Source of the DNA: Natronomonas moolapensis 8.8.11
GTDB taxonomy: Archaea > Halobacteriota > Halobacteria > Halobacteriales > Haloarculaceae
Direction of reading: 5' to 3'
Assembly (NCBI RefSeq): GCF_000591055.1
Contig: NC_020388.1
Span: forward strand, 1,612,001 to 1,676,000
Length of the DNA stretch: 64,000 nt
In this document: piece after piece, positions 3,111 to 39,824 of the stretch
Position numbering within the stretch: the first letter of the stretch is position 1
Layout: each line of letters starts with the position of its first letter
Translations under genes and position numbers: made by a program
The notes under the pieces: generated by a model
Database searches by the model: none
The model's input: the letters and a program-made list of their open reading frames with translations, nothing else
What the model was told of the DNA's origin: nothing

Positions 3111-3175
3111 CTACCCCTGCCTACTCGCCGCCTTCGGCTGCTCCTTGAGGCAGGGGCTTCCTGCTTCCACGACGC
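3100..3175 (-). ncRNA. Candidate omega/sotRNA scaffold overlapping the tnpB 3' end
   Basis: On the minus strand the last codons of tnpB form a stem CCCCTGCC (3156-3149) with GGCAGGGG (3121-3114). It encloses an inner GCCG-aagg-CGGC hairpin and the sequence TCAAGGAGC. IS1341-type tnpB genes in haloarchaea are known to give sense overlapping transcripts from the 3' end, and TnpB nucleases use such RNAs as guides. The fold is seen in the sequence; transcription is inferred. Confidence 0.45.
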
Positions 3176-11200: not shown

Positions 11201-14200
11201 ATACGGGTAGGAAACTGCCGCCCCACTGCGGATATCCCACGTGTTCTGGAAGTCGAAGCCGGTCGCGTTTGTCTTCGCATTATCACCCTTCAGCTCAACA
11301 GTGCGAAGCGATTGCGCTCCAGCGCCAGCCGAAGAGGTCCGCTCGGTGGTCTGGTTGTCCCAGTACGTGTTTTGCACCGTTGGCGAGTTGTGGACTGTGC
11401 CGATCAAACCGCCAGCAGCAGGTTCGTCGGCGACAGCACCGACCGCGTACGAGAGGGTGACGTTACCGCCGGAAACGTTCCCAACGAGGCCACCGAGCGA
11501 TGCATTGCCGTCGACGCTCCCGGTCGCGTAGGCGTTCGTGATGTTTCCGCTACGATGGATACCGACCAGTCCGCCGACGTTTTCACCATCGGTCGTGACG
11601 TTGCCAGTTGCAAACGAATCAGCGATTCTCTCACCAGAGCTGTCGCCAACGAGCCCGCCGACAACTGCCCAACTCGCGCTACTGGAAACATCACCGGTTG
11701 CGTACGAGTTGAGGATCTTCCCTCCCTCGTCTACGTCACCGATTAGTCCACCGACTGCTTCTTCGTCACCAGTGACATTGCCAGAGGCGGTTGCATTCTG
11801 CACTACCGATTCGGAACTATCACCGATCAGCCCGCCGACATCAGTGGTACCAGTGACACTCCCAGACGCCGTGACGTCTCTCACCGTTCCAGAACTCACA
11901 CCGATCAACCCACCGGCTTCAGTGTCACCAGTGACGTTCCCAGAGGCAGTTGCATTCCGCACTACCGATGCATCATCATCACCGGTCAGGCCGCCGACCT
12001 CGTCGTCGCCAGTGACGTTCCCAGAGGCTGTCGCGTTCGTTACCGATCCAGAGTTATCACCGATCAGGCCACCAATCTCATCTTCCTGACCTGAGACGTC
12101 ACCAGACGCTGTCGCGTTCGTTACCGATCCAGAGTTATCACCGATCAGGCCACCAATCTCATCTTCCTGACCTGAGACGTCACCAGACGCTGTCGCGTTC
12201 GTGACCGGAGCAGCATTATCGCCAATCAATCCGCCGACATCATTAGCTTCGCCCGAGACGTCCCCGAACGCAGTTACATTCGCCAGTTCCCCACTGGCAG
12301 TATACCCGATCAGCCCACCGACATCATTATCAGAACCTGAGACAGTTCCGGCGGCAGTCGCGTTCGTCACGACTCCCTTACTGTAGCCGACCAATCCGCC
12401 AACGTACTGGTCACCATTGACGTTGCCGCTCGCCATAGAGTTCTCGATACTACTGTCACCGTAGATATCGCCAACGAGTCCACCGGCCCAAGATCCCGAT
12501 GCATTCACTGATCCGGTCGCAACAGACTCTCGTATCGCAGCGTTGGACCACCCCTGTCCGACCAATCCACCGACAGAGTTGGTCGCGTTCACGGTTACAG
12601 AGCCATGCGAGTCGGATATAACGCCACTATCCGCGTATCCGACCACCCCGCCAACGTACTCGTCACCAGTGACGTTCCCAGAGGCCGTCACGTTCGTCAC
12701 CGATCCGGCACTGTCTCCGACTACGACGCCGACCTCATCTCCCCCGGTGACTTCCGCCGCTTCCAACGTGGCGTTTCGTACCTCCCCATCGGTGCCGACG
12801 TGACCGAAGAGGCCAATACCTTCCGTCTGCGGTCGGTCGATTACGAGCTCCGAAATCGTCGAGTCGTTTCCGTCGAACGTGCCGGTGAACGGCTGGCTGG
12901 AGTTCCCGATCGGCTCGAACCCCTTCTCATTGTTCCACCCGCTCGTCGCCGAGGCGTCGACGTCGGAGACGAGTTCGTAGTGCGCATCAAGATCTTGGTT
13001 GATGCACTGGAGTTTCGCCAGCGAGTCGATTTCGTATGGATCATCAGTGGACCCGTCACCGCTGTACTCTACCACTGCGCAATTGACCCCTTCCCGAATG
13101 GTCACTGTCGCAGTATCGGTTATCGATTCGTCCGCTGAAAAGGTTAGATCGTAGGTCCCAGCCGTTTCCTCGGTGAACGTAAACGTAGCTTGACCGTTCG
13201 AATCGGTCGTTTCCGTGTCGCCAGTGTTGATCCCAGAGAGTCCATCCGTGGCGTCGACAGAGATGGACGTCGACTCGAGACGGTTACCGAACTCGTCGGT
13301 TGCGACGACGGTCACTCCGCCGGTCTCATTTACTACCGCAGTCGTGTCCGGTGCATCGATACCGGCGATCGACGATTCTCCGACGGCAGCGGCTTCCCAC
13401 TGAAACACCGGATAGTCGCCGGCGACGCTCTGCCACGTTCCAGCCCAGTCGAAGTCCATGTTCTCTTCGGCAGTGACGCCCTGCATCTCGGCTGTGGATA
13501 GTGCGGTAACGACACCATTAGGTTCGTATCCCCCGACGGCATCGTTTGGACCCTTGTCGGTGTCCCAGTACACGTCTTCGAACGTTGAGGGGACGTTCCC
13601 GCCTCCAACGATCGAACCGGCCACGTCTCCAGTGACAGACCCAACAGTGTAGACGTTCGTGAAGTCGGATGGATTGCCACTGTTTCCGACGAGTCCACCG
13701 GCGTCCGCATTGTCACCGTGAACGCGACCTCGGGCTTCGTCGGCTTCCACCGTCGCTCTGACGTAACTCGTACTCACCGTCGTATCCGACGACGAGCGAC
13801 CGAGGATTCCGCCGACCTCGTCGGAGCCAACGACTCTGCCGGTGAACACGACCTGGTCCTCGAGGGTGATGTCATACCCGTGACCCACGACACCGGCCGT
13901 ATCGAGTTCGCCGGTTACGGTTCCGTTGACGGAGACGTTCCCAACGAATCCGTCCTTCGTATCGATATTATCGGATACTAGCTGCCCGGCTAATCCGCCG
14001 GTATTCTCGCCGCCGGTGATGTTCACTGACGCGAGCCGCAGGTTTGTGAACCGTGCTTCGTCAGCAGCGGCAAACAGCCCCACTCCGTTCGTATCAGGGC
14101 GGTCAACTGTGAGCCCGGACACGGTGTGACTGTTACCGTCGAAGGTCCCGGTAAATTGCTGGCCAGAACATCTCTCCCACGGCTTCGCCTCACCCACTTC

Positions 14201-16693
14201 GGTGCAGCTCCCGATCGGCTCGAACCCCTTCTCATCGTTCCACCCGCTCGTCGCCGAAGCGTTGACGTCGGAGACGAGTTCGTAGTGTGCATCGAGATCT
14301 GCATTGATACACTGCAACTGGCTCACGTTCTCGATCTCGTAGGGATCGTCTGCGCTACCATCGCCCCCCGAAAACGATACCTCGGAACACGTCGGTGCCG
14401 TGTCCTGTGCCGCCGCGACGCCGTCCATGCCCGAGACGGTACTGGTGCCCGAAGTGAGCGAGTTGCCGCTGGTGTCGTCGATACTTCCCGAAATCGTGAC
14501 GTCGACTGTGTCGGTGTCGACTGCGGAAGTCAGATCGATATCGACGGTCGCATCCGCGCCGTTTTCTGATGGTGTGACCGAGGCAATCGAGCCACTGCTG
14601 AGCGAGAAATCACTCGCGTCGATTGTCGACTCGTCGACATCGACGCCGTCTGTGATCGTGGCCCGAATGGTGGTGTCGTCGACTTTCGACGCACCGGACA
14701 GCGTTGGTACCGTGTTGTCGATGGTGTAGCTCTCGCCACTGATGTAACTGCCGTCGCCAGCACTGCTGGTACCGTCCCCACCCAGCGGCACGTTGTTCGC
14801 GTTGTCGATGGTGTCGTCGTCGCTCAGGTCCAGCCGGAAGGTCCCGTCACCGCTGTTGGCGACCGACACGTCCACGGTGTAGCTTGAGCCATCGGCGTCC
14901 CCGGCGTCACCGACGCTGGAGATGCTGGGTGACGGACTCCCGCTGGTCACGGTAGTGGTGAAGTCACTGGTATCAACATCGCTGACGCTCTCGGAGAAGG
15001 TCACGTCGTAGGTGACGCTGTTGGCGTTGGTGTCTTGGCTGGTCGGCGTTTTGCGTGTGATCGACGAGACTTCCGGGGCGTCCTGTATATCGACGTTGAC
15101 GGTGATCGTGTTCGTGGCGGTACCGTCGCTGACCTGCACGTCGAAGGAATCGGCGCTGGTCCCGCTGGTATCGCTCGGTGGCGTGTAGGTCATCCCCGAC
15201 GGGGTGACGCCGCTGCCCGCGCTGACGGCTTCGTCGCCGCCGAAGCCGCTGGTCGACCCGGTTGGAGCACTGCTGATCGACCAGTCCAGGGTGTCTCCAC
15301 CGTCGCTATCGGAGACAGCCAGTTTCGAGTCGAGATTGTAACTGCCGGAATCTTCCTTCACCGTGATCGTGGTCGAGGAGTCATTGTCGAAGGTGGGTGC
15401 GTTGTTCGGAATAACAGGTGGTTCGAAATTGATATCATCAATATTCAGGACAATATTTCCACCAGAGATAGTGACACTCTGGGTGTTTTCGAAACTAGAT
15501 TTCGAGAAAGTGTACGGTTCTTTCGTGACATAAGTACCATTACTTGTGAAACTCACTGAAGCACCACTGTCTGGTGATACCGTCACGTCATTATCTGCAA
15601 GCGCATCGATAGTCATACTCTTCAGCTTAAAGTTGTCCCCATCTGCGTCCTCGATTTTGACACTGGAAACCGAATACTGACCATCTGAGTCGAAAAGCAT
15701 TGCCAGATCTGAACCACCACAAATAGGTATCTTGTCACATTGGCTAGCAGTGATATTGTGAGTGTATGGCGAATTTGTACCAGTTATAGTATATTTTATA
15801 CCGTCATGTGTGAACTGGTCCGTATTCGAGAACGTCGTTGGGTCGGAGTCGTCGTCGTAATTTTCATCCGATGGGATATTCAATACATTCTGATACCGTG
15901 GTACCTGAAACGCAGGGTGAATTCGGTTAGACTCCGTTCTGACGGTGACTGGCTCGGATTCGTTACCTGAGACTGAACTAGCAGCAACCTCCAGTTCCCA
16001 ATCCCCACCCTGACTTTCGGCACCAGTCAAATCGTCAGAGGCCGCCACGTCACCGCCAGTCGCGTTCGCCACGTCGCCGACGAACGCCCGGCCGGTGCCG
16101 TTCTTGGCCACCAGACACCCATAGAGTAACACGTCGCCATCGGCCGCAAGACTCCCGTTGAGTGCCCCCATCAGGCCGCTGTACTGGTCGAGCGTCTCCC
16201 GGTGGAGCGTGTCAGTGCCGATCTGGACTGTCCCGATGGTTCCGTGGGAGAGGACGTGGACCGCCGCTAGATTCGAGCGCTCGGCGAGTGCCGCCTGCAT
16301 CTCCGCGGCGCTGGAGACGTTCACAACGTCCATATGGGCCTCGCGGGCCGCACGGGCGAGCGTGGCGTGATCTTCGACGGTCGTGTCGACGACGGCGAGT
16401 TCCGTCCCCGCGCTGGTCTCGCCCGCGTCGCTGTGACTCACGGTGCTTGGCTCGAAAATCTCGGGCCAGTCCGTGCTGTTTGGAACAGACTGCACGGTTG
16501 CGTTCTGTCCCGGTGCGATCCGGTTCGTCGCCGGACTGGCGGCCGCCGACCCACCTGCCGTGGAGATAGCCGCGGCCTGTGACCCCACTGGTGCCGACCC
16601 ACCAGTCGCGCTGGTCGCTACCGCTGGCGCGGCCGGTGCCAGCAGGAGGGCTGCCAACACCGTCAGCAGCACCGCGCGACGCAGTCGCGTCAT
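8249..16693 (-). CDS. Giant DUF4347 / Ig-cadherin / GLUG-repeat surface protein
   Basis: This protein of about 2,814 aa is exported by a signal peptide (MTRLRRAVLLTVLAALLLAP). Domains in order: DUF4347 at about 95-245, with V-H-V-L-S-H-G (His150) and L-L-Y-G-C (Cys193); Ig and cadherin-like modules to about 750; a first GLUG segment; an Ig-like domain; then two long GLUG arrays. I count about 33 G-G-L-x-G turns in all. An acidic Asp/Ser linker and a PGF-pre-PGF domain (TPGFSTFVIGTE) follow, then a final membrane helix with R-R-R. I chose ATG 16693 over the in-frame ATG 16711 because 16693 overlaps the stop of the preceding small ORF as ATGA. It is probably a cell-surface adhesin. The His/Cys pair in DUF4347 recalls caspase-fold enzymes, which is inference only. 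Confidence 0.92.
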   Translation of the reverse strand: MTRLRRAVLLTVLAALLLAPAAPAVATSATGGSAPVGSQAAAISTAGGSAAASPATNRIAPGQNATVQSVPNSTDWPEIFEPSTVSHSDAGETSAGTELAVVDTTVEDHATLARAAREAHMDVVNVSSAAEMQAALAERSNLAAVHVLSHGTIGTVQIGTDTLHRETLDQYSGLMGALNGSLAADGDVLLYGCLVAKNGTGRAFVGDVANATGGDVAASDDLTGAESQGGDWELEVAASSVSGNESEPVTVRTESNRIHPAFQVPRYQNVLNIPSDENYDDDSDPTTFSNTDQFTHDGIKYTITGTNSPYTHNITASQCDKIPICGGSDLAMLFDSDGQYSVSSVKIEDADGDNFKLKSMTIDALADNDVTVSPDSGASVSFTSNGTYVTKEPYTFSKSSFENTQSVTISGGNIVLNIDDINFEPPVIPNNAPTFDNDSSTTITVKEDSGSYNLDSKLAVSDSDGGDTLDWSISSAPTGSTSGFGGDEAVSAGSGVTPSGMTYTPPSDTSGTSADSFDVQVSDGTATNTITVNVDIQDAPEVSSITRKTPTSQDTNANSVTYDVTFSESVSDVDTSDFTTTVTSGSPSPSISSVGDAGDADGSSYTVDVSVANSGDGTFRLDLSDDDTIDNANNVPLGGDGTSSAGDGSYISGESYTIDNTVPTLSGASKVDDTTIRATITDGVDVDESTIDASDFSLSSGSIASVTPSENGADATVDIDLTSAVDTDTVDVTISGSIDDTSGNSLTSGTSTVSGMDGVAAAQDTAPTCSEVSFSGGDGSADDPYEIENVSQLQCINADLDAHYELVSDVNASATSGWNDEKGFEPIGSCTEVGEAKPWERCSGQQFTGTFDGNSHTVSGLTVDRPDTNGVGLFAAADEARFTNLRLASVNITGGENTGGLAGQLVSDNIDTKDGFVGNVSVNGTVTGELDTAGVVGHGYDITLEDQVVFTGRVVGSDEVGGILGRSSSDTTVSTSYVRATVEADEARGRVHGDNADAGGLVGNSGNPSDFTNVYTVGSVTGDVAGSIVGGGNVPSTFEDVYWDTDKGPNDAVGGYEPNGVVTALSTAEMQGVTAEENMDFDWAGTWQSVAGDYPVFQWEAAAVGESSIAGIDAPDTTAVVNETGGVTVVATDEFGNRLESTSISVDATDGLSGINTGDTETTDSNGQATFTFTEETAGTYDLTFSADESITDTATVTIREGVNCAVVEYSGDGSTDDPYEIDSLAKLQCINQDLDAHYELVSDVDASATSGWNNEKGFEPIGNSSQPFTGTFDGNDSTISELVIDRPQTEGIGLFGHVGTDGEVRNATLEAAEVTGGDEVGVVVGDSAGSVTNVTASGNVTGDEYVGGVVGYADSGVISDSHGSVTVNATNSVGGLVGQGWSNAAIRESVATGSVNASGSWAGGLVGDIYGDSSIENSMASGNVNGDQYVGGLVGYSKGVVTNATAAGTVSGSDNDVGGLIGYTASGELANVTAFGDVSGEANDVGGLIGDNAAPVTNATASGDVSGQEDEIGGLIGDNSGSVTNATASGDVSGQEDEIGGLIGDNSGSVTNATASGNVTGDDEVGGLTGDDDASVVRNATASGNVTGDTEAGGLIGVSSGTVRDVTASGSVTGTTDVGGLIGDSSESVVQNATASGNVTGDEEAVGGLIGDVDEGGKILNSYATGDVSSSASWAVVGGLVGDSSGERIADSFATGNVTTDGENVGGLVGIHRSGNITNAYATGSVDGNASLGGLVGNVSGGNVTLSYAVGAVADEPAAGGLIGTVHNSPTVQNTYWDNQTTERTSSAGAGAQSLRTVELKGDNAKTNATGFDFQNTWDIRSGAAVSYPYLRNNTQSPPPGLESPFAGGTGSESSPFEIKNWYHLDNVSRLPGANYTLVADLDSNTTGYDEVANASANDEKGFEPIGSSEQRFVGTFDGRNRTISNLYINRNLNYVGLFSYVGEGGDIYNLTVADVNITAELHVGGVAGTNGGTLRNISVDGTVRSTSEGNSNSGGLVGENTGTVRRATADVTTSGTEAVGGLVGTNGGTIKYSSANGNVSGSQSVGGLVGVNFARGKTATIEQSSASGDVTGDALVGGLAGQNFKSVLNTSSANGTVTGDSYVGGLAGVAVGGQITDASANATVEGTTSVGGLVGANGAQGQPGSTITNASASGTVSVPDDAEPTEYVAGLVGQMYLGNITRSSASGTVDAPDATHVGGLVGYANGTESNNRRVQTIRESYATGDVTGNESVGGLVGTTRNETVVHSYAVGNVTGDTAVGGLVGNHTGANANVTEAYAAGTVSGGTDVGGLIGTTQASPTVESAYWDTETTAQSSSEAGTGLNTSQLNANESLAGFDFQNTWDIRSGAAVSYPYLRNNTQSPPPGIHELAPTPGAGGDGNDDRDSGQSNEDSSDSNDNSGNGASTSGDSDDDDDDRSNVDVRSMAQPDAAGAQDGESDVAPTSTTGFVVSMRNVDGGEQIAVDFTEQRRPTASQPTDEEAPSTENEETPSGESAPRNVQSDGLVLTVSEEGDYELTVTARDVDVFATAAESGDGDAEPSDGEDTDRGEGESSGEVDLSTDTFDEESTRFVEATSARPVGFITVEHTFDSDDLETATHRLRVRKSYLAATGATAESVALYREEPESYRALSTRRVGEDDAYYYFEADTPGFSTFVIGTEAPIFDLGGPTLEQADVETGVIDASVPVENIGTEPGTYTVRLRGDGVVLAETEVSVPAGEIVEATVRATVPDADGLALTVAGESLGEFTVEDSDADGSERTTDAGVQSTTDAEDATDEPSDTADGSAPGGQFLVLLVAAVWIVVAVWALRRRDEP
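9594..9687. repeat. 94-bp near-identical repeat, copy A
   Basis: It matches 11169-11262 with one mismatch in 94 bp. It lies in the coding sequence of the giant protein and encodes the segment F-D-F-Q-N-T-W-D-I-R-S-G that closes each large GLUG block. The near identity between distant copies suggests recent gene conversion or block duplication. Confidence 0.9.
11169..11262. repeat. 94-bp near-identical repeat, copy B
   Basis: Partner of 9594-9687. Together they bound a block of about 1.58 kb that could be lost or gained by homologous recombination while keeping the frame. Confidence 0.9.
12045..12213. repeat. Exact 84-bp tandem duplication inside the GLUG array
   Basis: Two directly adjacent, essentially identical 84-bp units each encode 28 residues containing Q-E-D-E-I-G-G-L-I-G-D-N-S. 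Period 84 equals one GLUG repeat. This is a recent repeat expansion in a coding sequence. Confidence 0.9.
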
Positions 16694-16884
16694 GTCGCAC
16701 CTCGCCCGCACAGCCTTGCGTTCGGAGGTGCGATGTGGATATGCGGGTCCACTGCGCCGTGTGGTTGGTTATCACTCGGTGCGCTGTTGATCGCTGTGAG
16801 GGGATTACGCTGGGTTGTCCCGGTTATGGGTGGGGTCACGACGGCGACGAGGGCGACAGCGAGCCACACCAGCGAGCGTCTCAC
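16690..16884 (-). CDS. Small exported-type ORF coupled to the giant protein gene
   Basis: A 64-codon frame starts at GTG 16884 and ends with a TGA that overlaps the ATG of the giant gene (ATGA at 16690-16693). The peptide starts with R-R then a hydrophobic stretch (LVWLAVALVAVV), a typical signal or membrane segment. A proline/histidine-rich tail follows, without a family I know. The overlap is the main argument that it is translated. The frame upstream (16881-17120) also overlaps it, as GTGA, but looks less like a protein. It may be a short secreted peptide or a translational-coupling leader for the surface protein. Confidence 0.4.
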   Translation of the reverse strand: MRRSLVWLAVALVAVVTPPITGTTQRNPLTAINSAPSDNQPHGAVDPHIHIAPPNARLCGRGAT

Positions 16885-18321: not shown

Positions 18322-18349
18322 TTATTTAATGACACTCGACACAAAAGAC

Positions 18350-18397
18350 ACGGTGATTTTATATCCGTTGCCTGCTACGGTGTTCTCAAGGAAACAG
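18350..18397 (+). promoter_or_regulatory. Promoter of orc1/cdc6
   Basis: The TATA-like TTTTATAT (about 18356-18363) lies about 38 nt before ATG 18398. That distance gives a nearly leaderless transcript. It argues against the upstream in-frame start at 18329, which lies before the TATA box. Confidence 0.6.
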
Positions 18398-19615
18398 ATG
18401 GGGTTGTTCGAACCAGACACGGACATCTTTCGTAACCGCGATGCGCTCCGGGAGGATTACCAGCCGGAAGAGATCGTGGGACGGGACGAAGAACTACAGC
18501 AGTATATCGCCGCATTGCAACCGGTCATTAACGGCGATCAGCCGTCTAACATCTTTCTCTATGGAAAGGCTGGTGTCGGCAAAACGGCGTGTACACGCTA
18601 CCTTCTCGATCAACTCAAATCGGATGCGGCCGAGTACGACATCGACGTCACGACGATTCGGACGAACTGTGAAGATCTAAGCACGAGCTATCAAGTCGCG
18701 ATCCAACTCATCAACGAGTTACGCGCCCCCACGGACCAACTGAAGCCGACCGGATATCCACGACGACAAGTAAACGAGTGGCTCTGGGAGGAGCTTGATT
18801 CGATCGGTGGGACGATCGTCATCGTCTTCGACGAGGTCGACCACATCGAGGACGACTCGATCCTCTATCAGATCCCCCGTGCGCGAGCAAACGGCAACCT
18901 CAGCGAGTGCAAGGTCGGTATCATCGGCATCTCGAATGACTTCAAGTACCGCGAACGGCTCAGCTCAAAGGTCCAATCGAGCCTGTGTGAGAAGGAACTC
19001 CAGTTCCCGGCCTACGACGCAAACGAACTTCGAGACATCCTTCGTCAGCGTGCTGAGATCGCTTTCTATGACGGAGTCGTCCCACAGGAGGTGATCGCAA
19101 AGTGTGCCGCCTTCGGTGCGAAAGACGCTGGCGACGCCCGCCAGAGTCTCGACCTCCTGATGGAAGCCGGAGACATCGCAGTCGAGGAGAACGCGGCGAA
19201 ACTCACTGAAGCCCATGTCGATGCCGCCCGAACCGCGCTTGAACGCAGTCGCATCGCCGACGGCGTTGCCGGGCTTACCCAACACGGCCACTTAGTGCTG
19301 TACGCGCTCGTGATGATTCACGAGGAAGGGGACACGCCGGTCCGTGCTCGGACGATCCAGGAGCGATACGAGGTCGTCTGCGATCGGGCAGCGACGGACG
19401 CGCTCGTCCCACGGCGAATGCGGGACCACCTGAACGAACTCGCCATGTTGGGAATCGCCAGCCGGGTCGAGCGGAACAAAGGCGAAGTCGGAGGCCGGTA
19501 CTACGAGTACGCCCTCGATACGAATCCCGAACTCCTCCTCGAGGCACTCGATGAAACGGTGGACATCGTAGGCGTTACCCATGAAGTCCAACGGCGTCTC
19601 GGCCGGAGCCACTGA
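18398..19615 (+). CDS. cdc6: Orc1/Cdc6 replication initiator
   Basis: From ATG 18398 (MGLFEPDTDIFRNRDALRE, the usual family N-terminus) the protein is 405 aa. It is an AAA+ ATPase with Walker A GKAGVGKT (about residues 57-64) and Walker B VIVFDEVD (about 141-147), followed by sensor regions. A C-terminal winged helix covers about 315-400 (YEVVCDRAATDALVPRRM...LAMLGIASR). It binds origin boxes as the archaeal origin recognition protein and loads MCM. Three ORB-like repeats upstream and one just downstream make this a self-contained origin-initiator cassette. Haloarchaea carry many orc1 paralogues, each usually specific for its own boxes. An IS6 copy on each side suggests that the cassette was acquired or moved. 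Confidence 0.95.
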   Translation: MGLFEPDTDIFRNRDALREDYQPEEIVGRDEELQQYIAALQPVINGDQPSNIFLYGKAGVGKTACTRYLLDQLKSDAAEYDIDVTTIRTNCEDLSTSYQVAIQLINELRAPTDQLKPTGYPRRQVNEWLWEELDSIGGTIVIVFDEVDHIEDDSILYQIPRARANGNLSECKVGIIGISNDFKYRERLSSKVQSSLCEKELQFPAYDANELRDILRQRAEIAFYDGVVPQEVIAKCAAFGAKDAGDARQSLDLLMEAGDIAVEENAAKLTEAHVDAARTALERSRIADGVAGLTQHGHLVLYALVMIHEEGDTPVRARTIQERYEVVCDRAATDALVPRRMRDHLNELAMLGIASRVERNKGEVGGRYYEYALDTNPELLLEALDETVDIVGVTHEVQRRLGRSH

Positions 19616-19915: not shown

Positions 19916-20962
19916 TTACGCCCACGCCAGCGAGCTGTTCCGCTCTGTGAGATACGTCTCGTCGACGCTCGTCTCCCCGGGAAGCGTAATCTCTTCGCCG
20001 GCTCGACCGAGTATCGTTTGACGCAAGAACGGATGCCCCGGATCGAATTCGGGGTTCACCACGAGTCGCTGGCTGTCCGAAAGCGTGAACAGATCCGCAT
20101 CGAAGGCGCGGTGATGGAGCGAGTTCATCACGAGGACGTTCGCCTCGTCCCCGACGAGATCCGGACGGTCGCTCCGTGCGAGCACGTGTGCAAGATCCAA
20201 CACGGCCGTCTCGTCGATCCCGGTGACGACACACTGGTGTTCGAACCGAGCCAGCATGTCGTCGCGGAACTGGCCGCTGACGACGGCTTCGGCGCGCTCG
20301 ATCCGACGGCGATGCCCGCTCGTATCCTCGATTCGATCCCCGAGAGGCCACCGAGAGATGACGCCGCTTGACGTCCACTCGGTCCACTCGCTTGGTGCGG
20401 ACGCATCGCTGTGCCGTTCGGCCCGTTCGTGGAGCCACGAAACCGGCACTCGAGGGGTGTTCAGAACGGCGAAATTGAACCGGTAGTTCGGTATCCGGGC
20501 TCCCGAATCGTCGTAATAGGTCGCCACTTCGAAGCTCACTGGGACGCACAGGCCACAGAACTGGACGACACCGGGTTCCGGCTTCCGGAAGATCAAAACC
20601 GGGGGCACGGCCGAGCGGTCCCCGCGGGCGGCACGTTCGAACGCGGTCTTGATCTTTTCGTTCTGAATGGACTCATCGTACGCGAGGTCGGCCTTCGCGT
20701 CGCCCCAGTACTCGATGTGTCCCGAAGAGACACTCAGTGAGTCCTGCCAGGGATCTTCGTGTTGGGAGACACCGTCGTCGTTGGAGACGAGGACCAGCGC
20801 GGCAGGCTCGTCAGAGTCCTCGAACGAGAGGTCCCTGATACCGCCCGTGTTTTTGATGCCGGCCGAGAGCGCCCCCCGAAGCCAGCGAAGAAACTGGTCG
20901 TCGTCGTTTCGCCACGACCCCGTATCCCGGTAGCGTTGGTTCACCTCGAACGCTGCGTCCAT
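19916..20962 (-). CDS. HNH endonuclease, probable modification-dependent (type IV-like) restriction enzyme
   Basis: From ATG 20962 (MDAAFEVNQRYRDTGSW) the protein is 348 aa; the open frame extends to 21061 without need. The N-terminal two thirds is a conserved module (Y-W-G-D-A-K, P-P-V-L-I-F-R-K-P, P-N-Y-R-F-N-F-A-V-L-N-T) resembling the DNA-recognition parts of HNH restriction enzymes that read modified DNA. The C-terminal part is an HNH_2 nuclease: CVVTGID, LDLAHVLARS, NVLVMNSLHHRAFD and LFTL. It is divergent from the mazG-like gene at 21136, with 173 nt between the two starts and possibly shared control. Assignment to type IV restriction is inference from architecture; the HNH fold is clear. 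Confidence 0.75.
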   Translation of the reverse strand: MDAAFEVNQRYRDTGSWRNDDDQFLRWLRGALSAGIKNTGGIRDLSFEDSDEPAALVLVSNDDGVSQHEDPWQDSLSVSSGHIEYWGDAKADLAYDESIQNEKIKTAFERAARGDRSAVPPVLIFRKPEPGVVQFCGLCVPVSFEVATYYDDSGARIPNYRFNFAVLNTPRVPVSWLHERAERHSDASAPSEWTEWTSSGVISRWPLGDRIEDTSGHRRRIERAEAVVSGQFRDDMLARFEHQCVVTGIDETAVLDLAHVLARSDRPDLVGDEANVLVMNSLHHRAFDADLFTLSDSQRLVVNPEFDPGHPFLRQTILGRAGEEITLPGETSVDETYLTERNSSLAWA

Positions 20963-21135
20963 ACGGATCCAAACGGCACGAGGCTCATTGGTTTGTCGCC
21001 GATGTCGTCCACTCGCAGTGTGGATCACATTCAGTGGCTCTCGCCGAACTGAGTGACGCACAAATCAACAGTATCGTCAGCAAACCTCTCTGCTCGGTTG
21101 TGAACCTCTTTAGCCACGCCGGTGGTACTGCGACC

Positions 21136-21483
21136 ATGTCGATAAAAGAGATGCACGCCGCAGTACGGGAGTTCTGTGCGAAACGCGGGTGGGACGAGTA
21201 TCACGCGCCGAAGGAGCTTGCGATCGGGATGACTAACGAATCGAGCGAGTTGCTCCAGGAGTTTCGCTTCAAAGATCGAGACGAACAACAGGAGTTGCTG
21301 GCAGATCCCGAGGCCAGAGAAGATATCGAAGACGAGTTGGCCGACGTTCTGTTCTTCGTGCTTCGGTTTGCCGATATGTATGACGTTGAGCTAGACGACG
21401 CGTTGGCGAGCAAACTCGAAAAAAACAGAGCCCGGTTCCCGGCAAACGAATATCAGGAACCCAGCGAAAACCAAGACAAGTAA
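21136..21483 (+). CDS. MazG-like nucleotide pyrophosphohydrolase
   Basis: This 115 aa protein starts at ATG 21136 (MSIKEMHAAVREFCAKRGWDEYHAPKE). A longer in-frame start at 21034 would overlap the HNH promoter. Motifs are ELAIGMTNESSELLQEF (E..E metal site) and EDELADVLFFVLRFAD (E..D site), characteristic of all-alpha NTP pyrophosphatases of the MazG/dCTPase group. It hydrolyses (d)NTPs to (d)NMP and PPi. The next gene begins 6 nt after the stop, so it is the first gene of an operon with the nuclease-helicase and the exonuclease. In this context it may adjust or deplete the nucleotide pool during infection (inference). Confidence 0.85.
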   Translation: MSIKEMHAAVREFCAKRGWDEYHAPKELAIGMTNESSELLQEFRFKDRDEQQELLADPEAREDIEDELADVLFFVLRFADMYDVELDDALASKLEKNRARFPANEYQEPSENQDK

Positions 21484-21489
21484 GCGTCG

Positions 21490-23376
21490 ATGCTCGTCTA
21501 CGAAAACACGAAAGCCGGCTTTCTCGACGGCGCGTTGGAAGCCCAACTCGTCCCGAAAATCAAGCAGGGGTATCAATCACAGGGGGTCGGGATGGGCAGT
21601 CCCGGAGAAGTCCGATCGTGGAAGAACTCCCTGCAGTACATGCACAGCGTCCTGAGTGGCAGTTCCGTCCCGAGCGATGCCGGTGTCGCGATCGAACTCA
21701 AAATCCCGCTGACATCCAAGCGAATCGATTTTCTGGTCTCCGGCTACGACGCGGCGGACAGCGCGAACGTGGTTATCATCGAGCTCAAACAGTGGGAGGG
21801 AGACAGCACGGAACGCGTTGAGACCCAAGACGGCATCGTCAAAACCGCCCTCGGCGGCGGGATTCGCGAAACCCCTCATCCGAGCTATCAGGCCGCGTCG
21901 TACGCCCAACTGCTCTCGGATTTCAACATCACGATCCGCGAGAAACCGATCGAGCTTCATATCTTGGCGTATCTACATAATTTCGAGGCACAACACCGCG
22001 AGACGCTCGATAACGACCTCTACCGGCCCTACATCGAGCAGGCACCGATTTATATTCGTGGCGATGCGAAGAAACTGCGTGCCTTCCTCGAGTCTCAGAT
22101 CGACGTCGGCGACGACCGCGAGAACCTCTATGCGATGAACGAGGGGAAGATCAGGCCAGCAAAATCCCTGCAGAACTCGCTGTTGGAGATGCCAGAGGAA
22201 CGAGACGAGTTCACGCTGATCGACTCCCAGAAGGTCGTCTTCGAGAGGGCCGTCGAATTGACGAGACGCTGCCGACGAGACGGTCAGAAACGGACGCTGA
22301 TCGTCGACGGCGGCCCCGGGACCGGAAAGACCGTGGTGGCGATCAACATCCTCGCGGAGTTGATTCAAAACGACATGGTCGCTCAGTACGTCTCGAAGAA
22401 CCGAGCGCCACGCGAGGTTTACAAGGAGAAACTGCGTGGTGACAAACTGGTCAAAGAGATCGAACACCTCTTTACGGGCGCTGGCAGCTTCGTCGAGACG
22501 GAGTCGAACACGCTGCCCGCGTTGATCGCCGATGAGGCCCATCGACTGAACGAGGAATCGACGTTCTTCGGTCGCGGTGAAAACCAGATCATGGAGATCA
22601 TCAACGCCGCCAAGTTCAATGTGTTCTTCATCGACGAGAGCCAGCGCGTCCACATCGACGACATCGGCTCGAAAGACGAGATCGAAAAACACGCTACCGA
22701 GTTAGGCGCCGAAATCGAGGAGTCGACGCTCGAATCACAGTTCCACTGTAACGGCTCGAAAGGCTACATCGCCTGGGTTGACGACGTACTACAGATCCGC
22801 CACACGGCGAACGCAGACGGGTTCGATCTCGACTTCGACTTGCGCGTGTTCGACTCCCCTGAAGCGCTGCATGCGGCGATCGAAGCAAAGAACGAACAGA
22901 CCCGGCTCTCCCGGGTCGTAGCGGGGTACTGTTGGGAGTGGGAGAAAGACGGCCGTGCCGACCCGGACGCAACCGACATCGAGATCGGCGATTACGAGCG
23001 GAGTTGGAACCTCGACGATAGCGATCCGTGGGCGATCGCGGAGGGCTCGATCGACGAGGTCGGATGCATCCACACCTGCCAGGGCCTCGAATTCGACTAC
23101 GTCGGCGTGATCATCGGTGACGATCTGAAATACCGCGACGGCGAGATCATCGTCGATCACGAAGCACGGGCGAGTACGGACCGGTCGCTGTTCGGCATCA
23201 AGAAGATGTTTGACGAGGAGCCCGAGAAAGCAGCCGAGATAGCCGAAGAACTCATCAAAAACACCTACCGGACGCTCATGACCCACGGCATGAACGGTTG
23301 TTATCTGTACTGCTGTGACGACGAACTCCAAGAGTACCTCGGAACACGCATCGAAACCATCTCCACCACCCACTGA
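21490..23376 (+). CDS. PD-(D/E)XK nuclease fused to DUF2075 helicase
   Basis: In this 628 aa protein, residues 1-170 form a restriction-endonuclease-like fold with D80 (K-R-I-D-F-L-V-S-G) and E98-L-K100 (V-V-I-I-E-L-K-Q-W), the PD-(D/E)XK signature. Residues from about 235 on are a DUF2075 P-loop helicase: Walker A DGGPGTGKT (about 273-281), Walker B ALIADEAHRL and FFIDESQRV, and a C-terminal motif T-C-Q-G-L-E-F-D-Y-V-G-V-I. It probably unwinds and cuts DNA or RNA. DUF2075 helicases linked to nucleases have been reported in phage defence. The operon with a MazG-like enzyme and a DEDDy exonuclease supports such a role, but this is not proven by sequence. Confidence 0.88.
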   Translation: MLVYENTKAGFLDGALEAQLVPKIKQGYQSQGVGMGSPGEVRSWKNSLQYMHSVLSGSSVPSDAGVAIELKIPLTSKRIDFLVSGYDAADSANVVIIELKQWEGDSTERVETQDGIVKTALGGGIRETPHPSYQAASYAQLLSDFNITIREKPIELHILAYLHNFEAQHRETLDNDLYRPYIEQAPIYIRGDAKKLRAFLESQIDVGDDRENLYAMNEGKIRPAKSLQNSLLEMPEERDEFTLIDSQKVVFERAVELTRRCRRDGQKRTLIVDGGPGTGKTVVAINILAELIQNDMVAQYVSKNRAPREVYKEKLRGDKLVKEIEHLFTGAGSFVETESNTLPALIADEAHRLNEESTFFGRGENQIMEIINAAKFNVFFIDESQRVHIDDIGSKDEIEKHATELGAEIEESTLESQFHCNGSKGYIAWVDDVLQIRHTANADGFDLDFDLRVFDSPEALHAAIEAKNEQTRLSRVVAGYCWEWEKDGRADPDATDIEIGDYERSWNLDDSDPWAIAEGSIDEVGCIHTCQGLEFDYVGVIIGDDLKYRDGEIIVDHEARASTDRSLFGIKKMFDEEPEKAAEIAEELIKNTYRTLMTHGMNGCYLYCCDDELQEYLGTRIETISTTH

Positions 23377-23390
23377 GCACGTCTCTACCG

Positions 23391-24128
23391 ATGGGCACTC
23401 TCGTTCTCGACATCGAAACCGCGAGCCCACTCGAAGAACCATCCGCGAACGCGAACGACACGCAGTACTTCGAGTGGGTTGCCGTCGGCCTCGCGTACGT
23501 CGACGCGTTACAGGACACACCTGAAACCGACGTGTTGTTCCGACGCGGAAACTGGGACGACGCCTACACGCGCGATCTCTTCGAACAACTCTTCGAGTGG
23601 TGTGAGAAACGGAACGTAGAGCGGCTGCTCACGTACAACGGAACCTGGTTCGACGGCAAACACCTACTCACCTGGGCCCGCGAGCTCGACACAACGAGTG
23701 ACACGCGACTGAGACAGCGAACCGAGTCTCTCTTCGGGAACCACATCGATGTCGCCCTCGCCGCTGCCGACGAATATTCGGACGAGCTCCTGGATGGCCA
23801 GCCGATCCTCCCGGACTGGAAAGCGTACGATATCGCGGGGATCAACAACGACAGCGTCTGGTACGACGACTACGACTTCCCCGAGACGTACCTCTCGGAG
23901 ATTGACGGGCCAGCCGTCCAGGGCAAACACATCGGACGAGTCATCGGCGACAAATACGTGCAAAACGTCGACGCCGAAATCGAACACACCAGCGTCCATC
24001 GAGAGCTCACGCGACTCCTTGAGGACTACTGCAGGAGCGACGTTGTCGATCTGATCGACCTCTACACCGCACTCGGTGGCCCTGAACTCGACGACACGTA
24101 CCGCCGGCCACCGTCACAAATCGCGTGA
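23391..24128 (+). CDS. DEDDy 3'-5' exonuclease (RNase H-like fold)
   Basis: This 245 aa protein has all four acidic positions of the DEDDy family: D7 and E9 in LVLDIETAS, D in LTYNGTWFDGKHL (about residue 87), and the Y-x3-D motif in DYCRSDVVDL (about residue 216). Such domains remove nucleotides from 3' ends. The protein is free-standing and not fused to a polymerase. Its ATG lies 14 nt after the stop of the nuclease-helicase gene, so it is the third gene of the operon. The combination of pyrophosphohydrolase, nuclease-helicase and exonuclease suggests joint degradation of a nucleic acid. It could alternatively act in repair. Confidence 0.85.
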   Translation: MGTLVLDIETASPLEEPSANANDTQYFEWVAVGLAYVDALQDTPETDVLFRRGNWDDAYTRDLFEQLFEWCEKRNVERLLTYNGTWFDGKHLLTWARELDTTSDTRLRQRTESLFGNHIDVALAAADEYSDELLDGQPILPDWKAYDIAGINNDSVWYDDYDFPETYLSEIDGPAVQGKHIGRVIGDKYVQNVDAEIEHTSVHRELTRLLEDYCRSDVVDLIDLYTALGGPELDDTYRRPPSQIA

Positions 24129-24341: not shown

Positions 24342-26618
24342 GTGAGTATGGACGAACTGACGGCGAATATCTCGTTCGACAGGTTCGCGGATATGCCGGA
24401 GTTCTACGGGTCGGGGGCTGCGGAATACCGCCTGGCGATGGTGAAAGAGCGGGCCGACTTCCTCGATCTGTTCGCAGGCGCTCGTCACGTAGACGCCGTG
24501 ACGTACGCGGAGACGCCCGACCTGATGGTGAAAATGTTGACCGAGTACGACATCGGCTCACTCGACGTACTCATCGGGAACGCCGACGACTACGCCGACC
24601 AGGTGAACGACGTCTCGACGGCGAGGTCGCTCGTCCGACTGCGACAGAACGACCGACTCACGGTTCGACTGAAGAACCGGAAGACAGTCCACTCGAAGAT
24701 CTATCGAATCGTTATGCCGGACGACACGGTGAAACTCGTCCAAGGGTCGGCCAACCTCTCGCGGAACTCTTGGGAGTACCACACGAACCAGATCTCCGTC
24801 ATTACGACCGACGTCGGGACCGAACTGGACGAAGAGTTCGAGCGATTCATCGACGAGTACCGCGAAGGATACAGCGATCAGACGCTTCTCGAAGGGCTCG
24901 TCGAGGCGCTGGAAGAGGCCGACTCACCGGAAGAGCGGGAGAACCGCATCGAGTACTGGGTCGGTGCTGGCGATCTCGACGTGAGCGACACTGCTGCTCT
25001 GAACCAAGACGCCGTCGAGGATCTGAAAGACGTCGCCGATCAGGTCACTGCGGTCGTTGACGACCCACAAAAGGCCGACGAGACGGTCGCATTCGTCGAA
25101 GCCCCCGAGAACGCTGACCGCAACGTCGTCGAGCCGGACGAGCTAACGGACGAAGACGGGTCGACTGACGCTGCGGACGAGGAGTCACCGGACGTCGGGC
25201 TCGTCGAATCGGATCACGAAACGGGGCTGACGGACGGGCTCGACCGACCGCGTATCCGCGCGCCCGACGAGAAGATCCGAATGGGAACCAGCAAGGTGGA
25301 CAAAGACACCGCCGACGAGTTCGGGGCCGGGCTTCGTGACCGCGGTGCGACCGTCGAGGACCACAGCATCACCGCACCGCTGAGCGCGTACAACAACCAA
25401 GTCAAGGAATCGACAGCCATCCCGACGATGTCGGTCCTGCCGGAGGCCGAGCAAATCGTGATCGGCGAGGACGACGAGATGATTCTCGTCGCCACCGACG
25501 AGCCGACCCCCGAACTCCTGGATCACTGCCTCGAAACCATCGAAGACTACATCGAGACTGTCGACGACCACGGCCACACACAGTCCGAGACCGCAGTAAT
25601 GGCACAGATGTACGAGGCGTTCCTCTACGGGTTCTGGGCCCCGTTCGCCAACCAGTACGCCGAGGCGTTGTCGTCACCGTCACGGACGCTGGACAACGTC
25701 CTACAACACCTCTACATCGAAGGAAAGAGCGACGCGGGAAAGGATAAGCTCACCGAGTACATCCTGCGACTTGTCTCCGACAACACGGTCATTTCCGGTG
25801 TGGATGCAGACGATGTCGGCGTCAAGGAAGTCCGCGGCGTCCGCGAATGGGACACGTGCTTTCCGTACGCCATCATCGACGCCGAAAAAGAGAAGATCCA
25901 GCGATGGAGCCCGATCCGAAACTACTGGGGCGACTGGACGCCCACCAGCGTCGATCAACCGTGTCTCATCTTCACGACCAACGACGCGCTCCCGAAATCC
26001 GAGTTCCGAAACCGAATGAAGATCCTGAGCATGGACGTCTCCTTTCCCTCCAATCCGGAGGACCCGGGCTTCCGCGAAGCCCAACAAGACCTCTCGGAGG
26101 TGTTGGAACGACAGAACCCGATCTTCAGTTATGTGGCCCGGCGAATGCTCACCGAACAACCATGGACCGACGGGAACGGTACAATCGAAGACGTCCGCCG
26201 CATTGTCCGCGAATTCTACGACGAAGCCGGTCGAGAGCAACCCGAGTACTTCCCCGCTGACGAACCGGCCGAGAAAACGTACGACACGGGACGGTTGAAG
26301 TGGCAGCGGGATATTCAAGGCGGCCGTGTCACGTTCGAGTCAGAACCGAATGCCATCACAGCCGACTTCGACCGCGAAGAGTACGAAGTGTACGACTACG
26401 AGAAGCGCCTCCCCAAACGATTCATGTCCGAAAAATCGTCCACAAGCGTCTACATCGGCGCACCCGAGGAATTCGCTGAATGGATCGGATATTCCGTCAA
26501 CGAACTCCTGAACGGGGCGGCCGAAACCGGCACGGACATTGAACAGTCAGACCACACAGAAGACGCGTCGGATACCGACGACTCCGGTGGATTCTTTTCT
26601 CGACTGTTCGGAGACTAA
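24342..26618 (+). CDS. PLD-family nuclease fused to SF3-like ATPase
   Basis: This 758 aa protein has at about residues 105-145 a single phospholipase D motif, V-H-S-K-I-Y with G-S-A-N-L-S (HxK...GSxN), typical of nucleases that dimerise to form one active site. An acidic linker follows (about 165-330). The C-terminal part looks like an SF3-type AAA+ ATPase: Walker A GKSDAGKD (about 460), Walker B YAIIDAE (about 510), sensor IFTTND (about 540) and an arginine-finger-like NRMK. The Walker A ends in D instead of S/T, which may weaken ATP binding. The start is GTG 24342 or ATG 24348; both fit the upstream TATA. SF3 ATPases are usually found in virus and plasmid replication proteins, and PLD nucleases in defence and transfer. 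I do not know this exact fusion. Confidence 0.75.
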   Translation: MSMDELTANISFDRFADMPEFYGSGAAEYRLAMVKERADFLDLFAGARHVDAVTYAETPDLMVKMLTEYDIGSLDVLIGNADDYADQVNDVSTARSLVRLRQNDRLTVRLKNRKTVHSKIYRIVMPDDTVKLVQGSANLSRNSWEYHTNQISVITTDVGTELDEEFERFIDEYREGYSDQTLLEGLVEALEEADSPEERENRIEYWVGAGDLDVSDTAALNQDAVEDLKDVADQVTAVVDDPQKADETVAFVEAPENADRNVVEPDELTDEDGSTDAADEESPDVGLVESDHETGLTDGLDRPRIRAPDEKIRMGTSKVDKDTADEFGAGLRDRGATVEDHSITAPLSAYNNQVKESTAIPTMSVLPEAEQIVIGEDDEMILVATDEPTPELLDHCLETIEDYIETVDDHGHTQSETAVMAQMYEAFLYGFWAPFANQYAEALSSPSRTLDNVLQHLYIEGKSDAGKDKLTEYILRLVSDNTVISGVDADDVGVKEVRGVREWDTCFPYAIIDAEKEKIQRWSPIRNYWGDWTPTSVDQPCLIFTTNDALPKSEFRNRMKILSMDVSFPSNPEDPGFREAQQDLSEVLERQNPIFSYVARRMLTEQPWTDGNGTIEDVRRIVREFYDEAGREQPEYFPADEPAEKTYDTGRLKWQRDIQGGRVTFESEPNAITADFDREEYEVYDYEKRLPKRFMSEKSSTSVYIGAPEEFAEWIGYSVNELLNGAAETGTDIEQSDHTEDASDTDDSGGFFSRLFGD

Positions 26619-28808: not shown

Positions 28809-29198
28809 ATGAAGACCACACGGCACGCGACCTACAACCTCAACTACCACATAGTGTGGTTGCCGAAGTACCGACAGTCGGTACTCGTCAACGGGGTCGC
28901 CAGTCGTGTCAGGTCCATCCTCTATGAAATAGCCGACGACAAAGGCGTCGAAATACTCGACCTCACCGTACAGCCCGACCACGTTCACCTGTTCGTCAGT
29001 AGCCCACCCAAGAACGAACCGGCACTACTCGCCAATTGGTTCAAGGGCATCTCCTCGCGCAAGTACAACCACCGATACGCCGACCACGACGGCGAGAAAA
29101 TCGGATGGGCGCGAGGATACTACGCAGGGACCGCCGGGCACGTTTCGAGTGAGACTGTCGAGAACTACATCCGGCAACACAAGGAGGGCGATTCGTGA
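28809..29198 (+). CDS. tnpA: TnpA, IS200/IS605 Y1 (HUH) transposase
   Basis: This 129 aa protein has the length of single-strand transposases. The HUH motif is Q-P-D-H-V-H-L-F-V. The catalytic tyrosine is most likely in V-E-N-Y-I-R-Q-H-K near the C-terminus. It cuts and joins single-stranded DNA at the TTAC and TCAA sites of this element using its subterminal hairpins. The stop overlaps the tnpB GTG start, so the two are translated together. As the only complete TnpA in the window, it could also mobilise the tnpB-only element and the solo hairpins at 24.18 and 34.74 kb. Confidence 0.95.
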   Translation: MKTTRHATYNLNYHIVWLPKYRQSVLVNGVASRVRSILYEIADDKGVEILDLTVQPDHVHLFVSSPPKNEPALLANWFKGISSRKYNHRYADHDGEKIGWARGYYAGTAGHVSSETVENYIRQHKEGDS

Positions 29199-30430
29199 CC
29201 GAACTCACGAAGACGCTGGAACTCAAACTTGTGGACCCGAACGCCCACAAGCGGAGGAAACTTCGTGAGACGCGAGAGGCGTACCAGAACGCCCTCCAAG
29301 ACGCCTTCGACGCTGGGTGTACCACGCAGACCGAAGCGAACGACGTGGTGGTCAACTACGACCTGAGCGGGTACGCGAAGAACGCGCTCAAGAAGTACGT
29401 CCCGCAACTCACGACGACGTACAACGCGGGCGAACTTCACGACGACCACCCCGTCCGCTTCACGAACGAAGGGCTACGGCTCGACCACAAGCCCGAGAAC
29501 GCTATCGAGTGGTACGTCAAAATCCCGCACCACGAGGACTACCACCTCTGGATGCCCGCCCAACCGAACCCTGAACAGCGCGAGTGGTTGGAAGCGTTAA
29601 ACGCGGGAGACGCCACGATGGGCGAGAGTCGGCTGTTCGAGCGGGACGGAAAATGGTATCTCCACGTCACCGCCACCCGCGACGTAGAGGAACGCTCCGA
29701 GGGGTCCGCCGAAGAACGGACGCCCATCGGAGTAGACATCGGGGAAGCGTCACTCGTCACGGTGTGTCACCGCGACGACCACGGATCTCCGACCGCGCCC
29801 GAACTGTGGGCCGACGAAGGCAAGACCGTCCGTCGGCTCCGCAAGACCTACTTCACCGCCAAGCGCCGACTCCAGACGCGCGGAAGTGACCGTATCGCAG
29901 AGTCCTTCGGGGACGATATATGGAACCAGATAGACGACGTGTTCCACCGTGTTACCCGCGAGGTCGTGGAGTACGCTGAGTCCGTCGAGAATCCCGTTCT
30001 TGTTCTGGAAGACCTGACGCACATACGGGAGTCGATGGACTACGGTGACTTCATGAATCGGCGTCTCCACGGATGGGGATTCGCCAAACTCCACGCGCAG
30101 ATACGCTACAAGGCCGTCGAGAAGGGCATCCCCGTCGAGACGGTGAACCCGCGCAACACGTCGAAAGAGTGCCACGCTTGCGGTGAAGTGGGGTATCGCT
30201 CGCGACAGGCGACGTTCAAGTGTACGAACGACGCTTGCTGGATGGGCGAGTACCAAGCGGACGTGAACGGCGCGATAAATATCGCAGACCGCTACCTCAG
30301 CGGTGAGAGCCATTCAAGAGAACACACGGATGGCGATGACTCGGCTGAGGATGGGGGGCGTTTGACCGCCCCACAAGACACCCAAGCCGATGCTACCAAC
30401 CAAGAGACGCTTGGGACGTATGCGTCTTGA
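29195..30430 (+). CDS. tnpB: TnpB, RNA-guided nuclease of the IS200/IS605 element
   Basis: This 411 aa protein starts at GTG 29195, overlapping the tnpA stop. RuvC-like residues are D in GVDIGEASL, E in VLVLEDLTHI and D in YQADVNGAINI. The zinc ribbon is CHAC...C...C. It differs strongly from the TnpB at 3111-4343 (different N-terminus and zinc-ribbon spacing), so the two elements belong to separate subgroups. It probably makes an RNA-guided cut that helps keep the element at its donor site. Confidence 0.94.
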   Translation: MTELTKTLELKLVDPNAHKRRKLRETREAYQNALQDAFDAGCTTQTEANDVVVNYDLSGYAKNALKKYVPQLTTTYNAGELHDDHPVRFTNEGLRLDHKPENAIEWYVKIPHHEDYHLWMPAQPNPEQREWLEALNAGDATMGESRLFERDGKWYLHVTATRDVEERSEGSAEERTPIGVDIGEASLVTVCHRDDHGSPTAPELWADEGKTVRRLRKTYFTAKRRLQTRGSDRIAESFGDDIWNQIDDVFHRVTREVVEYAESVENPVLVLEDLTHIRESMDYGDFMNRRLHGWGFAKLHAQIRYKAVEKGIPVETVNPRNTSKECHACGEVGYRSRQATFKCTNDACWMGEYQADVNGAINIADRYLSGESHSREHTDGDDSAEDGGRLTAPQDTQADATNQETLGTYAS

Positions 30431-38555: not shown

Positions 38556-39824
38556 GCGGACGGTGACTCACCGGATCATACTGTTTGACCGGTGTCGATC
38601 TACGAGGCGAGTTCGATCGCCGCAGTACGTACGTTTACTGACACGAACGACTCATGCAGACGACGGACCCCCCACCGGTCGTATCGGTCGAGTCGGAGCG
38701 ATAGGTCGGGCGATGGACGGATGCGATCCCAGTTGCTCGAGTGACATTCCCCGCGAACCGTGTTCGAACCGTTCGTCGAACCCCCTCGGCACGTGCGCCG
38801 CTGACGACCCACAGTTTGACTCGAGTCCCGGACCACCCGGTGGACGATCGTCAACCGATGCTCGGCATCGGGGCGCGCGCTCGACGTCCGTGTTCGCTCC
38901 GGTCGGTGGGTCGGTTCGACTCGGGATGACACACCGGCGATGATGCCGGCGGCCGACCCACTCCAATACTATCACACTTGATACGTATGTGTAACGGCGT
39001 TGGCATACGAGCGCTCGACGACGGCGTCGTCGCCGTGCCGTTGGAACCGTTCGCCGATCGGAGCTCGGGACGGGGGCGCAGTCCCGTCTGCACTCGCTGC
39101 CGGGCGTCGATTGGCAAAAACGTCCTCGGTCAACCGGTGTTGTTCCCCCAAAATGTAACATCCCGTCAGAGACCGAATTCGAGTTGTTAGGTCCTCTCGA
39201 GAGCCGTTTCGGGACGTAACAATCAGCTCGGCTCCCTCAGTGTGTCTGGGTGTTCGACGCGGTAGTGGTGGCGCTATCGTACTCGAGTCGAAACCGTCCT
39301 TCTACGTCCCCGAAGCTGGCTGTAAACACCGCTGAGAGACGCTGTATAGTACGATTTTGAACATGAGGTCGACGGCGATGCCGGGGCGAGGCGCCTGAAT
39401 GCACCCATCACGAAATTGGAAAACAGACAAAAAACAGCAGTAACACGGCATTGTTGGGGGTTTTCAGGTTTTGGAATCTCCCGGCACGTACCGATTCTGA
39501 GACGGTTGGGTACGACCGACGCTATTTCCCGTATATTGGCCGTTTGAGGCCCGTATTTGCCGTTCCACCGGAAACGATGGGGGTGTCGAACGGGGCTTCG
39601 AACGCTCGAATATGGCTGGATCGCGCGAAATCAGGGCAACAACACGCGAAAACAGCCCACCTTGCGGGAGAAATCCCGATTGTTACGTCCCGAAACAGAG
39701 TGTCTCAGACCATCTAAAGCACAAACTCGATTTTGAGCCGTTGTTGGATTTCGCTCAACAGCCTGGGCCGGCGAGTCGGCCCGAACAGTTTTATTCACCC
39801 CGTATGAGAAGAAACCAACAGCCG
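38556..39824. other. Long intergenic stretch without convincing gene
   Basis: About 1.27 kb. Frames here are short, overlap on both strands and lack family motifs. A weak candidate is a 65-codon plus-strand frame from ATG 38987 with C-T-R-C. TTTTATTC (39788-39795) is the promoter of the next gene. The region may hold decayed plasmid sequence. Confidence 0.4.

Follow-up and report, generated by a model that had tools for sequence, protein, structure and literature searches.

Gene organization and predicted proteins of the Natronomonas locus

The DNA analysed here, referred to as the window, is a 64,000-nucleotide stretch of the Natronomonas moolapensis 8.8.11 genome (G000:C1:1612001-1676000) on a 2.9 Mb contig whose relatives are haloarchaea. 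Within it, the genes for a putative nucleotide pyrophosphohydrolase (mazG), a putative nuclease-helicase (slfn) and a predicted DEDDy-type exonuclease follow each other on the plus strand with spacers of 6 nt (mazG/slfn) and 14 nt (slfn/DEDDy gene), which confirms the compact three-gene unit recognized in the sequence-only reading. The features of the locus are:

19916-20962, minus strand: HNH gene, encoding an AspBHI_N (SRA-like) plus HNH_2 modification-dependent endonuclease; a neighbour outside the cassette
20963-21135, no strand: divergent intergenic region of 173 nt between the HNH gene and mazG
21136-21483, plus strand: mazG, 115 aa, DCTPP1-like all-alpha NTP pyrophosphohydrolase; core gene
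21490-23376, plus strand: slfn, 628 aa, predicted PD-(D/E)XK nuclease plus SLFN-g3 (DUF2075) SF1 helicase; core gene
21490-22179, plus strand: predicted PD-(D/E)XK nuclease domain of slfn (aa 1-230; D80, E98, K100)
22288-23319, plus strand: SF1 helicase domain of slfn (aa 267-610), the same span as the PF09848 alignment
23391-24128, plus strand: DEDDy-type predicted 3'-5' exonuclease gene, 245 aa, recognized by motifs; optional third gene
24342-26618, plus strand: gene for a 758-aa protein with a PLD-nuclease-like N-terminus and an ATPase-like C-terminus; a neighbour

Because close homologues and identical spacing recur in other genomes, the arrangement of the three genes is not a matter of chance. 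The HNH gene starts at 20962 and thus leaves exactly the 173 nt of shared upstream region that had been read from the sequence. A TTTAG element ~27 nt ahead of the mazG start codon may be TATA-box-like, and TTTATT is found at a comparable distance upstream of mazG in Haloarculaceae archaeon CSSed162cmA_77 (locus L034). The nearby IS elements and origin noted earlier were also recovered, as transposase genes close to the cassette and orc1/cdc6 at 18329-19615; a tRNA integration site was sought in the window, which contains no tRNA. Other genes of the window include an IS605-type TnpB with a Cas12f1-like TNB domain (3111-4343), a second gene pair that is TnpA/TnpB-like by sequence (28809-30430), a 2820-aa open reading frame with matches to DUF4347, GLUG repeats and Peptidase_M26_N that encodes a giant surface-type protein (8249-16711), and a gene whose 473-aa product contains an NrS-1 polymerase HBD domain, which suggests a further plasmid or virus remnant (39612-41033).

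The mazG product matches PF03819 and PF12643, both above gathering cut-offs in the Pfam search, and its EXXE..EXXD residues E34, E37, E66 and D69 are invariant in 14 homologues; family profile and metal site place it among the MazG all-alpha NTP-PPases. Its best PDB relatives are 4qgp (1.3e-27) and then DCTPP1/RS21-C6 (E = 2.7e-25), which is matched over nearly the full length of MazG with identical metal-binding acids, whereas the window MazG comes from a small, separate gene linked to a nuclease-helicase gene. DCTPP1 acts on dCTP and C5-modified dCTP (PMC7162842), and by analogy dCTP or a modified dCTP may also be the substrate of the window MazG. Most of the C-terminal GS.KY motif common to its close relatives is missing from the window protein, whose substrate may therefore differ.

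The slfn protein matches PF09848 over 354 of 354 model positions (E = 2e-109; 366 bits vs a cut-off of 24). Its Walker A (GPGTGK) and DEAH-type Walker B motifs are conserved in the homologue alignments, and full-length match and helicase motifs together assign it to the SLFN-g3/DUF2075 helicases, in line with the DUF2075 annotation of its relatives. The N-terminal domain has no match in Pfam. In an AF2 model of the protein (pLDDT 85), this domain shows the order alpha-beta-beta-beta-alpha-beta, in which successive strands carry D80 and E98xK100, and D80, E98 and K100 are invariant in 45 homologues; these residues and this strand order, w/o a profile match, support its prediction as a PD-(D/E)XK nuclease with moderate confidence. 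The first match found by Foldseek with the model is human SLFN11 (E = 3.3e-10), and a second structural comparison (VIA) superimposes residues 6-610 of the model on 399-899 of SLFN11, so that the likeness to SLFN11/SLFN14 covers their linker and helicase half. In the same VIA comparison, however, UvrD (Z 20.8) outscores SLFN11 (Z 18.3) and the Schlafen match is therefore not exclusive: the slfn helicase belongs to SF1, and its tie to the Schlafens comes mainly from PF09848. The human proteins also differ from slfn at the N-terminus, where they carry an RNase core instead of the predicted PD-(D/E)XK nuclease.

No Pfam family matches the third protein. It contains the DxE, N..FD and YxxxD motifs of DEDDy exonucleases as D7xE9, N83GxxFD88 and Y213xxxD217, all invariant in 21 homologues, and its label as a predicted exonuclease rests on these motifs. 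A fold model built from two sequences has a pLDDT of 36, an hhalign comparison with an RNase_H_2-containing protein reached no more than 17% for the Exo II motif, and the match to Deep Vent polymerase is weak (E = 0.46, residues 188-226). The conserved residues recovered in the alignments of mazG, slfn and DEDDy homologues bear out the intact catalytic motifs proposed before.

The HNH gene product matches PF18062 (3e-36), PF13391 (5e-8) and the PADLOC model mREase_II (9e-23). With an AspBHI_N reader and an HNH_2 nuclease domain it is a modification-dependent restriction enzyme, in agreement with the restriction type suggested for it, and homologues occur in 40 of 387 haloarchaeal genomes. Its candidacy as a fourth member of the cassette was rejected, since it is missing from nearly all other loci: profile matches were found in 4 of 95, two of them to the HNH half only and non-adjacent. 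On the other side of the cassette, the product of the 24342-26618 gene matches PLDc_2 slightly under gathering (1.8e-5), and its ATPase part is recognized from sequence motifs only. Homologues are present in 76 of 392 genomes, and those in other genera of haloarchaea reach 97% identity; one adjoins a DEDDy gene (L178), and another lies 66 nt from an HNH homologue (G129). It is probably a recently mobile defence gene.

Linkage, mobility and genomic context of mazG and slfn

The exact three-gene order was found in the window and in one other genome, that of Haloarculaceae archaeon CSSed162cmA_77, where an 80.2% DNA match begins slightly downstream of the mazG start and ends shortly ahead of the DEDDy gene's stop (21163-24117), with no match in the sequences flanking the cassette. 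This recurrence at ~80% DNA identity between unrelated flanks shows that the triad moves as a cassette. The DEDDy family itself is found in 86 of 392 haloarchaeal genomes, and wherever else it shares a genome with slfn the genes lie apart. It takes part in many unrelated helicase/ATPase operons, and its neighbours include a HamB-like helicase gene (4-nt overlap), a MrfA/DruE-like helicase locus, and genes for a GHKL ATPase, an AAA_11/12-PDDEXK protein and a PLD protein. As an independent family whose only other triad found is that of L034, the DEDDy gene was rejected as an obligatory member, and we read it as an optional, promiscuous accessory nuclease gene by prediction; the family (23391-24128; L165-L184) may mark other haloarchaeal defence systems.

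The mazG-slfn pair is found more often. Proteins with 61-80% identity to slfn occur in 16 of 392 haloarchaeal genomes, its own included, a patchy distribution (4%) that leaves out all 10 of the other same-genus genomes listed. Close MazG homologues (E below 1e-30) are encoded in 11 genomes, all among these 16 and always adjoining slfn, typically with 5-6 nt between the genes. Three further slfn genomes have a MazG of a different subfamily downstream, which brings adjacency to 14 of 16, and two have none. The flanks differ from genome to genome, except in two pairs of near relatives; with adjacency kept between unrelated flanks, mazG and slfn move together. Halalkalicoccus jeotgali has an endonuclease/exonuclease/phosphatase gene in the position 3' of slfn. 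Rare adjacency in other genomes, which had been named as grounds for giving up the three-gene proposal, applies to the triad and not to the pair.

Relatives of slfn extend well beyond haloarchaea: at least 454 candidate stretches scanned encode them, and a scan of species genomes yielded 80 loci (48-85% identity) from haloarchaea, Firmicutes, Methanobrevibacter, a Woesearchaeote and others. Scored with a purpose-built MazG profile, MazG is directly adjacent in 56 of the 80, in Bacteria as well as Archaea, lying upstream in 30 (L084 counted here), downstream in 23, divergent in two and fused in one, a single 806-aa open reading frame of a Coriobacteriia MAG that joins the slfn region to a C-terminal MazG domain (L103:5862-8279). 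MazG is found ~0.6-1.2 kb upstream in three more loci and at 4.9 kb in one. It is missing from the remaining 20, two of which are near contig ends, and is therefore not obligatory. The same profile gave no match in 514 kb of comparison DNA, for which 20 loci were drawn from the same bacterial genomes and 20 from haloarchaea. By a quick method that left some branches open, the position of MazG switches at least 19 times on the helicase tree, and the retention of linkage despite such reordering argues for a joint function. MazG and the PD-(D/E)XK/SLFN-g3 nuclease-helicase form a module shared across domains, with copies borne on plasmids and many others on large chromosomal contigs.

Enrichment beside known defence genes, proposed earlier as a check, was seen in the bacterial loci tested. 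Among 102 proteins flanking 20 bacterial loci (MazG and slfn excluded), 106 PADLOC families were matched at E<=1e-15, vs 8 among 123 proteins from one control locus in each of these genomes, where families and not proteins are counted and overlap of related models makes the ratio overstate the effect. The loci are practically all from Firmicutes, and the figure applies to bacterial loci; the haloarchaeal loci L027/L028 and L034 have ordinary neighbours. Type IV, I and III restriction enzymes are among the matches, as are the models LmuA, MkoA/MkoC and PbeA. Recurrent neighbours in the 80 loci are SauUSI-like PLD-helicase, DUF2357-PDDEXK_7 and MutT Nudix genes (8 each), HNH_4 (7), macro (6) and Fic (5) genes, and a second MazG-like gene (5), so called from sequence resemblance, with no Pfam match for the one tested; cyclases and signal synthases are not among the regular neighbours in these loci. 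On a Priestia plasmid, MutT, DUF3578, MazG, DUF2075 and restriction-modification genes are consecutive, and the locus lies in a restriction island. An AspBHI_N-like gene stands between mazG and slfn at L068:3655-7038, and an HNH gene lies directly before slfn in L041. Separately, in L051, L063, L073, L080, L104 and L108 the SauUSI-like PLD-helicase gene adjoins MutT and/or the second MazG-like gene, a parallel pairing of nuclease-helicase and nucleotide hydrolase, and a Hymenobacter plasmid (L187) carries a tandem DUF2075 gene pair behind a restriction-methyltransferase locus.

A putative mobile defence cassette and its alternatives

From this context we infer a role in defence: the cassette is probably a mobile system against invading viruses or plasmids, built on MazG and a Schlafen group-3-type PD-(D/E)XK-SF1 helicase. 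Of the joint antiviral or anti-plasmid module proposed from the sequence, the mazG-slfn part stands, as a conserved mobile pair whose bacterial relatives have defence-rich surroundings, while the DEDDy gene does not hold its place as a necessary component.

A mycobacterial MazG hydrolyses 5-OH-dCTP (PMC3855555), and SauUSI cleaves m5C/hm5C DNA (PMC3874153). Given this chemistry, that of DCTPP1 and that of slfn itself, the module might cut foreign DNA and trim the dCTP pool, perhaps with modified cytosine as its target. Judged from the domain chemistry, the slfn helicase would load on and translocate along invading or replicating DNA, which the fused nuclease would cut. MazG, by likeness to DCTPP1, would hydrolyse dCTP or C5-modified dCTP/dNTPs and thereby leave less substrate for viral DNA synthesis or prevent modified bases from entering DNA. 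The DEDDy exonuclease, added downstream in the lineage of the window, would probably digest the ends produced. Our confidence is highest for the defence role and lowest for the substrate. A more specific version, in which one unit of Schlafen-type nuclease-helicase and dCTPase acts in both domains against viruses with C5-modified cytosine, MazG stripping modified dCTP and the nuclease-helicase, often aided by a modified-base reader, destroying modified DNA, is offered tentatively and is rather doubtful.

Genome maintenance, with MazG clearing damaged dCTP and the nuclease-helicase processing lesions, would suit MazG enzymes as house-cleaning NTP-PPases (PMC3855555), as well as the MutT neighbours in eight loci and the SF1 helicase fold of slfn. 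We consider such a sanitation and repair operon unlikely, for slfn is carried by merely 4% of haloarchaeal genomes and by plasmids, and restriction and defence genes flank the loci tested. It is just as unlikely that the two genes form a self-regulated toxic pair, slfn arresting growth and MazG lowering a controlling nucleotide signal such as an alarmone or modified NTP. Tight pairing with changes of order and a fusion agrees with such a pair, and macro and Fic genes lie nearby in some loci, but a strict antidote would not be missing from 20 of 80 loci, and a cyclase or signal synthase does not recur beside the genes.

The plasmid copies, and a Microcystis phage in which MazG adjoins a slfn-type helicase, could instead point to a tool with which plasmids or phages shape dNTP supply and cut rival or host DNA. 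Such a use is improbable given that 4 of 50,697 phage records match slfn, three of them weakly, that scans of viral contigs with slfn and the DEDDy gene gave pattern matches and no confirmed relative, and that large chromosomal contigs carry many of the copies. Least probable is that the three genes are mere co-resident passengers of a variable island. The promiscuity of the DEDDy family and a triad found only twice agree with this reading, but for mazG and slfn it is already contradicted by a linkage that has survived reordering and fusion in both Bacteria and Archaea.

If the defence reading is correct, a helicase family labelled simply DUF2075 in annotations, with its at least 454 candidate stretches in hundreds of genomes, gains a role and a partner, and DNA destruction is joined to nucleotide-pool control in one two-gene system. 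The helicase half of the vertebrate antiviral Schlafens would gain a prokaryotic relative, and a promiscuous haloarchaeal exonuclease gene would flag defence-like operons.

Comparison with known systems

The catalogues searched (PADLOC 2.0.0, NCBIfam and PHROGs) contain no full match to the whole module: PADLOC matches are partial, those of the window slfn covering the helicase motifs only, and NCBIfam matches fall far below cut-offs. DUF2075 and MazG were not found together in the open literature searched, an earlier mention in older papers being possible, and MazG and Schlafen appear together there in an unrelated context only. The description of the module as undescribed thus holds for PADLOC 2.0.0, NCBIfam and open papers; it does not hold for MazG itself, which DefensePredictor already names among predicted, unvalidated defence domains, although a Schlafen/DUF2075 partner is absent from its main text (PMC13092281).

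SauUSI, a modification-dependent type IV enzyme, shares with slfn the fusion of nuclease and helicase, and genes resembling it occur next to the module, in some cases beside MutT, but its PLD nuclease and its other type of helicase with DUF3427 give it a different architecture. The PADLOC candidate PDC-S41 is matched by all 45 slfn homologues (best E = 9e-22) and has a similar length (657), whereas the window match is confined to residues 254-324 and the candidate is a single gene w/o MazG. Nhi provides immunity as a single-protein nuclease-helicase. Through their SF1 helicase motif region, 42 of 45 slfn homologues match Nhi (best E = 9e-18) and 41 of 45 match AbiO (best E = 2e-19), but the window slfn covers only positions 187-316 of the 470 in the Nhi model and so falls outside Nhi as a whole, and slfn differs from both in its N-terminal part and its partner MazG gene. 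Hence the cassette would represent a new variant of nuclease-helicase immunity, in which the coupling to MazG is the new element.
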